Position numbers and translations under genes: made by a program. Shown here one piece after another: positions 13,072 through 16,907 of a stretch of DNA of 64,000 nucleotides (the first letter of the stretch is position 1; every line of letters starts with the position of its first letter). This DNA is from Fluviicoccus sp. Lineage in GTDB: Bacteria > Pseudomonadota > Gammaproteobacteria > Pseudomonadales > Moraxellaceae. The DNA lies in assembly GCF_030646115.1 (NCBI RefSeq), contig NZ_JAUSMX010000002.1:372001-436000 (forward strand), in the 5' to 3' direction. The notes under the pieces were generated by a model. That model saw only the letters and a list, made by a program, of their open reading frames with translations. It did no database searches and was not told the DNA's origin.

Positions 13072-14661
13072 ATGGCACTGCGCACTTACCTGCATGTTCC
13101 CTTTCCCGAGAAAGACCAGGCCAAGTCCCTGGGGGCGCGCTGGGACCCCATGGAACGCAAGTGGTATGTGCAAGTCGATGACCTTGGCCCCTTTCGACGC
13201 TGGATCATCACCGAACTGCATGCCGAGTCCACCGCACCTTCTGCCGCGCCGCTTGGCACTGCCGACAACCATGCCGGTTACCAGGTTGAACGAACACCCT
13301 CCAAAGGCATGAGCCTGCTGGACTTCATGCTACGCATGCAAGCCACGGTCGAAGCCGTGTACGCGCAACCAGTGTGGGTGCGGGTGGAAATCAACCAGGT
13401 CAAGCAAAGCCAGGGGCACTGGTTTCTGGAACTGGTGGAGCACGATGTCAATGGCGTCGTTGTCGCCTCCTCTTCCGGAACGCTGTGGCGGAACAACCAG
13501 TCCGTGCTGCAGAAATTCCAGCTGGAAACCGGCGTCGCCCTCAGTGAGGGCATCAAACTGCTGCTGGCCGTGCAGCCGCGCTTCAATCCCCGTTTCGGCC
13601 TCAAGCTGGATATCCTGGGCATCGACAGCGCCTTTACCCTGGGTGACATGGCCGCCAAGCTGAACCGAATCCGTGACATCCTGAAAGGCGAAGGAATTTT
13701 CCTCAACAACAAACGCCTGCTGCTGCCCGCTGACTTCCAGCATGTGGCCGTGATCAGCCCGTCCGGGGCAGCCAGTCTGGGAGATTTCCGCGCTGAGGCG
13801 GATCGTTTGCAACGACTGGGCATCTGCCGGTTCAGCTATTTTGAGACCACGTTTCAAGGGCCGTCCGCCGCTGCCGATATCCGGCATGCCATGGATAAGG
13901 CCTTGCGACTGCACGACAAGAATCCGCTGGATGCGTTGGTCATCATTCGCGGCGGCGGTTCGGCGGCAGACCTGTTCTGGCTGAATGACGAAGACCTGGC
14001 GCGTCAAATTTGCCGCTATCCGCTGCCTGTCATCACCGGTATTGGTCATGAACCCGACAACACCATTCTGGACGAAGTGGCGGCGCGACGTTGCGATACA
14101 CCCTCCAAGGTCGCGCAGTTGATCCTGACCACCATTGCTGACACCACCGGACAGGCCGAACACTGCATGCAGGCCATCCGCGAACACGCGGGGCATGTGC
14201 TGCAACATGCCGACCGCGATTGCCGCCGCCATCTGGACAACATCCGTTCACGGGCTTCGCTGCTGCTGGAACGACGCGAGTCACGGCTGGAACAGGACCA
14301 GCACGAAATCATCAGTATCGCCCGGCAATTGCTGGTGCGTCAGGAAGACCGCCTCGGTTATCTGATGCAGGGTTGCCGGGAGTCTGGCTTCCGCCATTTA
14401 CAGTCGGCCTCCTCCGGCTTGCAGCAACAATGGCGGGTGGTTCAAGAGCGCACTGCCTTACACCTGCAAGATGCAGAAACCCGTTGTGAACATCTGATTC
14501 ACGTGATTCTGGCCCTGGGGCCGGAGAAAACCCTGAAACGGGGCTACGGGATCCTGCGCACGGATGGGCGAGTCGTCACCACCCAAGGCCAAGTGGCGGT
14601 CGGGGCGGATTTTTCAGTACAGATGCAGGACGGCGTCCTGCACGCGCGGAGGACAACATGA
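13072..14661 (+). CDS. xseA: Exodeoxyribonuclease VII large subunit with N-terminal DUF5710 domain
   Basis: 529 aa against about 450 for a usual XseA. Residues 1-45 match DUF5710 (TYLHVPFPEKDQAKSLGARW, then WYVQ), a small module more often attached to primases, topoisomerase-like and plasmid proteins. After a linker, the OB-fold starts at M80 and the catalytic domain shows VISPSGAASLGDF, IIRGGGSAADLFW and GHEPDNTILDEVA, followed by the long coiled-coil that binds XseB. Exo VII degrades single-stranded DNA. Initiation at ATG 13309 would give a conventional XseA, so both forms may be made. Confidence 0.92.
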   Translation: MALRTYLHVPFPEKDQAKSLGARWDPMERKWYVQVDDLGPFRRWIITELHAESTAPSAAPLGTADNHAGYQVERTPSKGMSLLDFMLRMQATVEAVYAQPVWVRVEINQVKQSQGHWFLELVEHDVNGVVVASSSGTLWRNNQSVLQKFQLETGVALSEGIKLLLAVQPRFNPRFGLKLDILGIDSAFTLGDMAAKLNRIRDILKGEGIFLNNKRLLLPADFQHVAVISPSGAASLGDFRAEADRLQRLGICRFSYFETTFQGPSAAADIRHAMDKALRLHDKNPLDALVIIRGGGSAADLFWLNDEDLARQICRYPLPVITGIGHEPDNTILDEVAARRCDTPSKVAQLILTTIADTTGQAEHCMQAIREHAGHVLQHADRDCRRHLDNIRSRASLLLERRESRLEQDQHEIISIARQLLVRQEDRLGYLMQGCRESGFRHLQSASSGLQQQWRVVQERTALHLQDAETRCEHLIHVILALGPEKTLKRGYGILRTDGRVVTTQGQVAVGADFSVQMQDGVLHARRTT

Positions 14662-14894
14662 GCAAGCCCAAGACAGCGTCAACCAGTTTCAACGAGAATT
14701 TCCTGGTGCTGCAACGCAATGCTGAACGCTTGCGCGAAGAAAAGGACCTGGACATTGACAGTCTGGTGCCGCTGGTTGAGGAGTCGGCCAAAGCCTATCA
14801 GGTATGCAAGGCCCGGATCGAAGCCGTCAAACAGGCGCTGGAAGCCCATCTGCAAGGCGAATCGGACACGCACGACGCCGATTCCCCCCTGTAG
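14658..14894 (+). CDS. xseB: Exodeoxyribonuclease VII small subunit
   Basis: 78 aa, helical hairpin protein with the XseB signature FNENFLVLQRNAERLREEKDLDIDS and LVEESAKAYQVCKARIEAVK. Several copies decorate the XseA coiled-coil to form active Exo VII. It overlaps xseA by ATGA, giving coupled translation. Confidence 0.93.
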   Translation: MSKPKTASTSFNENFLVLQRNAERLREEKDLDIDSLVPLVEESAKAYQVCKARIEAVKQALEAHLQGESDTHDADSPL

Positions 14895-14961
14895 CCGCTG
14901 TCCCGGAGACCCTGAACGTCACAGGCTGTCGCCTCAAGCACAATCCTCCTTGTATGACCTG

Positions 14962-14986
14962 TTTGAATAGTGCAACACTGTTCAAA
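14962..14986. promoter_or_regulatory. Inverted repeat operator upstream of umuD
   Basis: Arms TTTGAATAGTG (14962-14972) and CACTGTTCAAA (14976-14986) are reverse complements with one mismatch, spaced by CAA. TTGAAT inside the left arm can serve as a -35 with a weak AATACA -10 at 14986 (17-base spacing), so a bound repressor would block the promoter. It starts 51 bases before the umuD ATG. There is no canonical CTGT-N8-ACAG LexA box here. Confidence 0.7.
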
Positions 14987-15012
14987 ATACATCCGGTCAT
15001 CGAGAACACATC

Positions 15013-15621
15013 ATGCCTAGCGGAGGAAAACGTCCCGGCGCCGGTCGCCCGACCGGACAAGGACCTTACGGGGAGAAAACCACCACCCTGCGCATCCCGC
15101 TCAGCGCCGTAGCGGATATCCGGAACTATCTGGAAACGCGTAAACCTGCTCCCGGTCTGGACTTGGCTCCTGCTCATGGCCTCCCGTCGGAGGTCATTGA
15201 TATCTTTCGGCCCGACTTGAACGCCATACCCTTGCTGCTGCCCCTCGCCGGTTCAAACGTGGTGGCCGGATTCCCCTCACCCGCCGACGATTACCTGGAA
15301 GATTATATTGACCTGAACCACCTGCTGATTTCCGAGCGGCAGAGTACCTTTCTGGTACGCGTCAAGGGGGAGTCCATGATCGATGCCGGCATCCAAACCG
15401 GCGACCTGCTGATTGTTGACCGCTCCCGGAATGCTCTGGACGGTGATGTCGTGATCGCCATTCTGGACGGCGAACTGACCGTCAAGCGGCTTGAAAAACG
15501 CGGCGCCCGCATCACCCTGATCCCTGAAAACCGCAAATTCCCTCCCATCACCATTCGCGAAGGACAGGATTTTCAGGTTTGGGGCATTGTCACGCACGCC
15601 ATTCACCGCTTTGTCCGCTAG
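15013..15621 (+). CDS. umuD: Extended UmuD-like S24 peptidase, probable SOS repressor/Pol V subunit
   Basis: 202 aa; E. coli UmuD is 139 aa. Residues 86-202 are canonical UmuD: cleavage site A85-G86 followed by FPSPADDYLEDYIDLN, catalytic S121 in GESMIDAG and K158 in ELTVKRLEK. Residues 1-60 are an added domain beginning GGKRPGAGRPTG and then TTTLRIPLSAVADIRNYL, which looks like an AT-hook-like tip plus a small DNA-binding helix pair. Length and catalytic spacing parallel Acinetobacter UmuDAb, as I recall it (A83-G84, S119, K156), a LexA-like repressor. umuC follows 11 bases later. Confidence 0.9.
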   Translation: MPSGGKRPGAGRPTGQGPYGEKTTTLRIPLSAVADIRNYLETRKPAPGLDLAPAHGLPSEVIDIFRPDLNAIPLLLPLAGSNVVAGFPSPADDYLEDYIDLNHLLISERQSTFLVRVKGESMIDAGIQTGDLLIVDRSRNALDGDVVIAILDGELTVKRLEKRGARITLIPENRKFPPITIREGQDFQVWGIVTHAIHRFVR

Positions 15622-15632
15622 GAGTCACCCTC

Positions 15633-16907
15633 ATGCAACCGTTGATGGCTTTGGTCGATTGCAACAATTTCTATGCCAGTTGTGAGCGCATCTTCCAACC
15701 GAAGCTGGAAGGCACCCCGATCGTGATTCTCAGCAACAACGACGGCTGCATTGTCTCACGCAGCAACGAGGCGAAGGCGCTGGGGATTCCCATGGGAGCG
15801 CCCTACCATGAATGGAAGCATGAACTGCAACGGCATCGGGTGGCGGTATTCAGTTCCAACTATGCGCTCTATGGCGACATGTCACGGCGGGTGATGAATA
15901 TCCTGTCTCGCTATGCTCCGCATCAAGAGATTTACAGCATTGACGAATGCTTTCTGGATTTCACCGGCATTGCCAACCCGGAAGCCCATGCCGCGACGCT
16001 GCGGGCGGATATCCGCAAGTGTACCGGCATTCCGGTAGCCGTCGGCCTGGGCGCTACCAAAACATTGGCCAAACTGGCGAATTACTGTGCCAAGAAGCGT
16101 TCGCCTTGGCTGAATACAGGCATCTGCAATTTGTCCGCACTGACACCGGATAGCTTGGGGTTGTTGCTTGACAGCATTCCCGTCAGTGAAATCTGGGGGG
16201 TTGGGCATCGCACCGCCCCCAAACTGGAAGCTCGCGGCATCCGCACCCTCAGGCAACTCGCCAAAGCTGACAGCAAAGGGCTCCGGAAAAGTTTCGGGGT
16301 GGTCATGGAACGCATCATTGCTGAACTGAACGGCACTCCTTGCCTGGAACTGGAGGAAGTGTGCCCGGACAAGCGGCAGATTCTTTCCAGCCGCAGCTTT
16401 GGAGAACTGATCAGCGATTTGCCAAACCTGGAAGCGGCCATTGCCAACCATGTCAGCCATGGAGTGGAAAAACTGCGTCATCAGCACAGCAAGGCCACCC
16501 TGATTACGGTATTTATCCGCACCAGCCCATTCCGCCGCCGCGATCCCCAGTACTCGGCGCATTCAACCGTAACACTAACTGTTCCTTCAAACGACATCGG
16601 GGTTTTCCAGAAAGCCGCCAATCAGGGCCTGCAGCGCATCTACAAACCTGGCTTCCGCTATCAGAAGGCAGGCGTCATCCTGCAAGCCATTGAGCCGGAA
16701 TTGATTCGACAGACTGATCTGTTTGCCGAACCTCCGGATGAGCGGCGTGAACAGTTGCTGAAGACGCTGGACCGGATTAACCGGCAATACGGACGGGAAA
16801 CCCTGAGGACAGCAACTGAGTTGCTGGGCACAAAATGGCACATGCGCCAGGCGTTGCGTTCACCGAGGTATACCACCTGTTGGGAGGAGTTGCCGTGGGT
16901 TGGATAA
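15633..16907 (+). CDS. umuC: DNA polymerase V catalytic subunit UmuC
   Basis: 424 aa Y-family polymerase. ATG 15633 with AGGAG upstream starts MQPLMALVDCNNFYASCER; catalytic acidic motif SIDECFLD and steric-gate region NNFYASCERIF are intact. The little-finger domain is complete and a beta-clamp peptide QTDLF lies at residues 360-364. It performs translesion synthesis with cleaved UmuD. Full length, unlike the truncated umuC loci linked to umuDAb in Acinetobacter, and clearly cotranscribed with the UmuD gene. Confidence 0.95.
   Translation: MQPLMALVDCNNFYASCERIFQPKLEGTPIVILSNNDGCIVSRSNEAKALGIPMGAPYHEWKHELQRHRVAVFSSNYALYGDMSRRVMNILSRYAPHQEIYSIDECFLDFTGIANPEAHAATLRADIRKCTGIPVAVGLGATKTLAKLANYCAKKRSPWLNTGICNLSALTPDSLGLLLDSIPVSEIWGVGHRTAPKLEARGIRTLRQLAKADSKGLRKSFGVVMERIIAELNGTPCLELEEVCPDKRQILSSRSFGELISDLPNLEAAIANHVSHGVEKLRHQHSKATLITVFIRTSPFRRRDPQYSAHSTVTLTVPSNDIGVFQKAANQGLQRIYKPGFRYQKAGVILQAIEPELIRQTDLFAEPPDERREQLLKTLDRINRQYGRETLRTATELLGTKWHMRQALRSPRYTTCWEELPWVG

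Follow-up and report, generated by a model that had tools for sequence, protein, structure and literature searches.

An extended UmuD of the UmuDAb type in Fluviicoccus, a probable autorepressor and subunit of its own polymerase V

The analysed window (64,000 nucleotides of the Fluviicoccus sp. contig NZ_JAUSMX010000002.1) contains an extended umuD gene (15013..15621, + strand). We propose, with a probability of about 0.78, that its 202-amino-acid product is both an autorepressor of the UmuDAb type and the UmuD of its own DNA polymerase V (Pol V). Homology, catalytic residues, conservation of the operator and coupling of the N-terminal domain type to operator geometry were established by computation.

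The extended umuD gene and the palindrome in front of it

The reading frame starts with ATG and encodes 202 amino acids, as a preliminary description of the window had stated, and its translation shows the N-terminal extension mentioned there, which includes RPGAGRPTG and TTTLRIPLSAVADI. Residues 78-193 match the Pfam family Peptidase_S24 (6e-33), and NCBIfam places the protein in the UmuD subfamily (159.9 bits, cut-off 110); the NCBIfam LexA model stays under its cut-off (106 against 110.95). Residues 86-198 align with Escherichia coli UmuD', starting at UmuD' residue 1, and the predicted model superposes on the UmuD' structure 1umu. UmuD', LexA and lambda-repressor C-terminal domains lead the best 50 of 302 Foldseek matches, and nothing among these 50 points to the N-terminal domain. 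The proposed cleavage site A85-G86 and catalytic pair S121/K158 agree with the alignments: all four residues were invariant among 53 sequences, and A85 was conserved at 90% or more in an alignment of 19 sequences. The predicted self-cleavage site is encoded at 15265..15270, with G86 aligned to residue 1 of UmuD' in 1umu, and the codons of S121 and K158 lie at 15373..15375 and 15484..15486 (all + strand). The positions stated for UmuDAb in the preliminary description (A83-G84, S119 and K156, each offset by two) match those given in the accessible part of PMC4807011. The protein thus has the S24/UmuD C-terminal domain, the A-G site and the Ser-Lys dyad of a UmuDAb-type protein, and, as for a Pol V subunit, its UmuD C-terminal domain is encoded beside a complete umuC.

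This umuC gene (15633..16907, + strand) begins 11 bp downstream of the extended umuD and encodes a Y-family polymerase of 424 amino acids with IMS, IMS_C and DUF4113 domains (NF002955, 440.5 bits, cut-off 431). A complete umuC in the operon of umuD had been claimed before and was found; the contrast with Acinetobacter that was drawn from it does not hold, as umuDAb-umuC operons are known in that genus. Upstream lie two neighbours outside the system, both on the + strand: xseA (13072-14661; Exonuc_VII_L, 2e-65) and a 78-amino-acid reading frame without a Pfam match (14658-14894), which by its position is presumably xseB. The xseA product opens with a DUF5710 domain (window 13081-13206), which to our knowledge is not usual at the start of exonuclease VII. 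At this locus there is no ddrR-like divergent gene upstream of the extended umuD, xseB being there on the same strand. The ddrR co-repressor is a feature of the Acinetobacter system and was not counted as defining the wider family.

The predicted operator is a 25-bp palindrome, TTTGAATAGTG-CAA-CACTGTTCAAA (14962..14986, without strand), with 11-nt arms that are 91% complementary. It is the sole inverted repeat in 14880-15030 and ends 26 bp before the ATG; no sigma-70 promoter was scored at 14850-15050. Its inner layout is TTGA (14963-14966), N5, a GCAAC core (14972-14976), N5 and TCAA (14982-14985). The UmuDAb operator consists of TTGA/TCAA arms and a GTnAC core, according to the accessible parts of PMC11332147 and PMC4807011. 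The palindrome agrees with it at 11 of 12 positions but deviates in having GCAAC instead of GTnAC as core and N5 instead of N4 as spacers. A palindrome as good was obtained in 10 of 1000 shuffles and in 37 of 1000 150-mers drawn at random from the window, so that it is not rare by itself. In a second genus of the family (g5), where the homologous protein is 65% identical, 22 of the 25 palindrome bases are kept, against 0-4 of 5 in the flanking blocks. Pattern searches of the genome gave 12 places against 7 in the reversed control, 11 rows against 6, and 4 rows against 0, the last being two places, the umuD promoter on C4 and C23:194063. Three of the 12 places (L007, L010 and L016) are inside reading frames or have no core, and the only convincing sites in the genome by these searches are two umuD promoters.

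The N-terminal domain and its link to operator geometry

The UmuDAb-type assignment of the preliminary description is supported by the operator layout and by a related N-terminal domain. The Acinetobacter set, chosen through a locus of Acinetobacter lwoffii, comprised 21 genomes of its genus, with matches in 18; loci L270-L289 and L290-L294 were read, and L295-L298 were set aside. Among the 20 loci L270-L289, 19 encode extended UmuDs and all 19 of these have the operator by a looser pattern; the remaining locus is neither extended nor preceded by an operator. Three of them (L279-L281) encode proteins of 203 amino acids with E24, K40-N41 and a box TTGAAAATGTAACTTTTTCAA at -65/-66. From genus, length, residues and box layout, these are presumably the published A. 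baumannii UmuDAb. They align with the 202-amino-acid protein from residue 3 on, and the motif GGxRxxAGR...E.T...R.P is common to UmuDAb-like proteins and the protein studied here. The UmuDAb mutations E24K and K40P/R41P derepress (PMC4807011, accessible part), and the positions at which UmuDAb becomes defective in repression (E24; K40/N41) have their counterparts in E21 and R37/N38 of the 202-amino-acid protein.

Two parts of the N-terminal domain stand out. Residues 4-12 (GGKRPGAGR; 15022..15048, + strand) form a basic arm that we propose, from its conservation, as reader of the outer TTGA arms; among 53 sequences R7, G11 and R12 are invariant and G4, G5, G9 and A10 are conserved at 90% or more. 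Residues 21-43 (15073..15141, + strand) comprise the extended segment EKTTTLRIP and a single helix (30-43), proposed as core reader from AlphaFold and conservation; T23, R27 and P29 are invariant and E21 is conserved at 90% or more in the same sequences. In the AlphaFold monomer (53 sequences), the helix 30-43 is the only one in the N-terminus and follows the extended segment, and no part resembles a helix-turn-helix (HTH). Block mean pLDDT was 81 and 90 over residues 21-40 and weak over 1-20 and 41-60. The same arrangement, one helix after an extended segment, was modelled for a relative from a prophage whose N-terminus is UmuDAb-like (AlphaFold monomer, 42 sequences). The strand and helix may resemble a ribbon-helix-helix (RHH).

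The preliminary description had given the N-terminus a LexA-like layout and had proposed structure prediction as a check; both models speak against that layout. The corresponding explanation, a LexA-like winged HTH repressor with a LexA HTH that has diverged as its N-terminal domain, agrees with published views of UmuDAb, for which three helices were predicted and I-TASSER models resembled LexA (PMC4807011), and for which AlphaFold and I-TASSER placed the helices like the LexA HTH (PMC11332147; both papers in their accessible parts). It is nevertheless very unlikely for the protein studied here. The LexA DNA-binding family PF01726, a winged HTH, does not match the protein, and neither AlphaFold model has an HTH; on these two grounds the candidate was judged unlikely. 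Legionella members such as L064 have only about 40 residues ahead of the C-terminal domain, which leaves little room for three helices. UmuDAb binds a TTGA...TCAA operator in published assays, and in gel shifts the operator core weighs more than the arms (PMC11332147, accessible part), unlike what two HTHs on two arms would give.

The N-terminal domain matched no Pfam family, DNA-binding ones included; among 33 members just three stray weak Pfam matches occurred, and there was no convincing PDB sequence match. PHROGs 21736 and 8312, whose function is not known, match 29/33 and 25/33 members, and a terminase small subunit family matches 7/33 weakly. From these searches and the two models, the domain is probably not an HTH.

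Several observations connect the domain with the geometry of the operator. The residue count from GR to RxP falls in loop classes, and the class predicted the operator half-spacing in 64/65 cases. The nearest relative by C-terminal domain already predicts it in 61/65, so descent explains most of this rule. In one pair (L106 and L108) the C-terminal domains are 78% identical, the loops differ and the operators are 21 and 23 bp long. Two loops parsed as 16 residues (L270 and L068) are misparsed loops of 10, which leaves the predicted spacing unaffected. One surveyed genome encodes three stand-alone proteins of about 90 amino acids that have the N-terminal domain and no S24 part (L300:92-364; L301, on the - strand; L302:1229-1504), judged by length and sequence and, for one of them, by a Pfam scan. 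Each has two or three tandem operators. They resemble each other and break the loop rule (loop 11 but N5). We regard them as candidate small phage repressors. One of them adjoins a filamentous-phage replication gene, and small gene pairs that by eye are toxin-antitoxin-like occur nearby (L300:771-1309, L302:1707-2359). Three members without GGxR (the second UmuD of C4, L189 and L065) have GTTAC or GTAC centres and no TTGA arms, and two of the three have one identical 19-bp palindrome sequence. The automatic count for the GG arm gave a Fisher p of 0.08; L175 is wrongly counted there as lacking GG, and the site scored for the second C4 UmuD is due to chance, which makes this link an anecdote. 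Taken together, the loop classes, the stand-alone proteins and the members without GGxR suggest that it is the N-terminal domain that reads the operator.

Spread of extended UmuDs, their operator and the absence of LexA

Relatives came from viral contigs and genome contigs (the best 80 of more than 570 each) and from plasmid records (at least 40, among the 5000 records covered). Extended UmuDs were found in Legionella, Thioglobus, Halothiobacillus, Hydrogenovibrio, Nitrosomonas, Methylobacterium, Sulfuricella and Synechococcus, and also in MAGs labelled Actinomarina, Opitutia, Planctomycetia and Chloroflexi, names that can be wrong for MAGs. One further extended UmuD (L303, G088) has a C-terminal half that runs into unrelated sequence and is probably a frameshifted copy. 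Removal of near-duplicates and of rows with fewer than 120 bases upstream reduced 107 extended and 104 other rows to 63 and 73. Most of the 73 are ordinary UmuDs, some are LexAs (for instance L039, L042, L044 and L045), and one (L187) is misfiled and really extended.

Within 80 bp of the start, an operator with at least 11 of 12 positions precedes 48/63 extended UmuDs and 6/73 other S24 relatives (shuffles 0.3% and 0.1%); with at least 10 of 12 positions the counts are 54/63 and 7/73 (shuffles 4.2% and 2.3%), which leaves 9/63 extended UmuDs without a scored operator in this stretch. The starts of the 73 others are often uncertain, as the earliest ATG was taken, and a box could be missed; the count was therefore repeated for them on a longer stretch (median 165 bases, maximum 978). 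It gave 48/63 against 9/73 at 11 or more positions (shuffles 0.3% and 0.4%) and 55/63 against 13/73 at 10 or more (shuffles 4.9% and 6.0%). Presence of the operator follows the N-terminal domain, not UmuD as such, and the longer stretch does not change this direction. A fixed pattern with a GTnAC core (at least 10 of 12) was found before 32/63 extended UmuDs and 2/73 others, an undercount, as the core is GTAC in many members. The LexA box CTGT-N8-ACAG (7/8) occurs before 1/63 extended UmuDs, and before 19/73 others in the first count and 30/73 in the longer stretch, some of these others being LexA genes.

These counts bear on the possibility that the protein is an ordinary UmuD with a non-regulatory tail and that the palindrome belongs to another regulator. 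A palindrome alone could indeed be due to chance and the N-terminal domain has no Pfam family, but the operator tracks this domain (48/63 against 6/73 or 9/73), also precedes stand-alone copies of it, and is of the kind that UmuDAb binds in assays (PMC11332147, accessible part). We consider this explanation very unlikely, and autorepression by an extended UmuD remains the preferred reading.

Six of the nine others with at least 11 of 12 positions can be explained. One is the extended L187, and five are plain umuD genes (L213, L078, L089, L095 and L107; one from Aquitalea, four on viral contigs), four of which score 12/12. All five have the 20-bp operator form that also precedes the extended umuD in Aquitalea and Vogesella (L223, L224). 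The other three are unexplained or due to chance. A perfect 20-bp operator also precedes plain umuD genes of Aquitalea magnusonii and Vogesella indigofera (L252 and L257), where no LexA was found, and three further plain umuD genes (L290, L291, L292) have the operator of extended UmuDs with 11 or 12 of 12 positions. A re-reading of 260 bases upstream included L258, L266 and L292, with L245, L250 and L256 left out. In Methylotuvimicrobium, which has LexA, no operator was found before the three plain umuD genes read out of five. The plain umuD genes with the operator are likely targets in trans, judging by their upstream sequences, and by analogy this looks like the control that UmuDAb exerts in A. 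baumannii.

LexA itself seems to be missing from the host. The preliminary description had asked whether the genome lacks lexA, and a search with PF01726, the LexA DNA-binding domain, gave no match in the genome, which is 97.7% complete. Among 38 genomes (own included), LexA is present in 13/13 from other families of the order and in 10/25 of the own family, one of these being weak (G009, E 1e-5, 485-amino-acid frame). In 370 genomes of the class, 34 have the N-terminal domain and 240 have LexA; LexA is missing in 25/34 genomes with the domain and in 105/336 without it (odds ratio 6.1, Fisher p 2e-6, phylogeny ignored), so that 9 of the 34 carry both. If three weak or stand-alone cases are taken out of the group with the domain, 23/31 lack LexA. 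In 14 of the 20 families concerned, no sampled genome with the domain has LexA. Of the genomes reached from named loci, 12/15 have no LexA and 3/15 have it, several of them being MAGs that may be incomplete; phylogeny is left out of account in all these LexA comparisons.

A dual role and comparison with known systems

The genome contains two more extended UmuDs besides the one at 15013-15621. They are encoded together in a second locus (L052, G000:C4:382000-396000) as umuD-umuD-umuC, and each has its own palindrome. This locus is flanked by a GmrSD-type restriction gene on one side and by DUF5131 and type ISP restriction-modification genes on the other, so the polymerase genes look as if they lie in a defence island. 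A PF00717 search of the genome gave five places at E up to 10, and the three over the cut-off are the three extended UmuDs. No plain UmuD was found by this search in the 97.7% complete genome, which has at least two umuC genes (15633-16907 and the C4 locus). This strengthens the idea of a repressor and Pol V subunit in one: with all three S24 proteins over the cut-off extended and two umuC genes present, the partner of UmuC would have to be an extended protein, barring a UmuD that escaped detection.

Alternatively, the protein could be a dedicated repressor that controls umuDC as UmuDAb does, while another protein serves UmuC. For A. baylyi UmuDAb, the data in the accessible part of PMC4807011 do not suggest a polymerase role or a need for the protein in polymerase activity, although one A. 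baumannii observation described there might suggest such a role. Furthermore, in 18/63 cases the gene next downstream of the extended umuD is not umuC, and one further extended umuD lies at a contig end. On the other hand, umuC follows 44/63 extended umuD genes, and this genome combines at least two umuC genes with three S24 proteins above the cut-off, each of them an extended UmuD. A purely regulatory function therefore seems unlikely, and the protein may well be repressor and Pol V subunit at once.

DNA binding, cleavage, repression and polymerase function, as we infer them for this protein, could be combined as follows. Without damage, dimers formed via the C-terminal UmuD/S24 domain would sit on the palindrome 14962-14986 and shut umuDC. 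The DNA reader would be the small N-terminal module, a GGxRxGAGR arm followed by a strand and one helix, perhaps RHH-like. An RHH-like ribbon on the core, with a basic GxR arm extending to each TTGA, would explain why the core matters more than the arms in UmuDAb. RecA filaments would stimulate the cut at A85-G86, which would remove the DNA reader and thereby derepress the operon. The remaining part, G86-R202, would be the counterpart of UmuD' and could join UmuC from its own operon. One cut would then give both outputs, derepressed umuDC and UmuD'.

UmuDAb, its operator and its co-repressor are already published. New here are the operator variant, a genome in which no plain UmuD was found, the breadth of the family and a domain that is probably not an HTH. 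Among the publications matched (titles and beginnings of abstracts, few subscription journals), none listed concerns UmuDAb-type proteins outside Acinetobacter. We think it somewhat likelier than its opposite that UmuDAb of Acinetobacter forms just one branch of an old and widespread family of extended UmuDs, and that this family commonly provides the polymerase switch in bacteria without LexA. Its members would have a very small DNA reader of a kind not yet described, a GxR arm with a strand and helix, and would follow the code TTGA-N4/5-GT(n)AC-N4/5-TCAA, in which the protein loop goes with the operator spacer. One self-cleavage would open the operon and make the active Pol V subunit, and plain umuD genes of the hosts would be controlled in trans. 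Control of mutagenic polymerases without LexA is known in few families only (PMC8565304, accessible part). If the proposal is true, one fusion of repressor and polymerase subunit would answer for many lineages how the polymerase is controlled without LexA, and a short motif would predict the targets. The picture of UmuDAb as carrying a LexA-like HTH would need revision, the greater weight of the core would be explained, and a repressor and polymerase subunit in one would become testable with a single operon.

UmuDAb (PMC4807011, PMC11332147, PMC7273328) is the closest known system. It has the same S24 C-terminal domain, A-G site and S/K dyad. Its N-terminal domain is related, at the E24 and K40-N41 positions as well, and it likewise has a TTGA...TCAA operator with a GTnAC-like core ahead of its own gene, a LexA-less host and, in some Acinetobacter species, a downstream umuC. 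The operator here differs in length and core (23 bp with GCAAC against 21 bp with GTAAC), a divergent ddrR-like gene is missing beside it, and no plain UmuD was found in the genome. With E. coli UmuD, the protein shares the operon with umuC, the fold and the part after G86 (residues 86-198), which aligns with UmuD'. E. coli UmuD has 24 residues before the cut, whereas 85 precede it here, and the protein in addition has an N-terminal domain and an operator of its own, in a host in which no LexA was found. LexA is similar in size, in its self-cleaving C-terminal domain and in its repressor logic, but the protein studied here has no LexA_DNA_bind domain, uses another operator and stays under the NCBIfam LexA cut-off. 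Lastly, HdiR of Streptococcaceae and the non-canonical LexA of Bacteroidetes also place a polymerase under S24 control without LexA (PMC8565304). In the accessible part of that paper (2021), earlier cases of non-LexA S24 control are given only for Streptococcaceae and Moraxellaceae, besides its own Bacteroidetes. HdiR and the Bacteroidetes protein are phage-repressor-like according to that paper and are not the UmuD of a polymerase.
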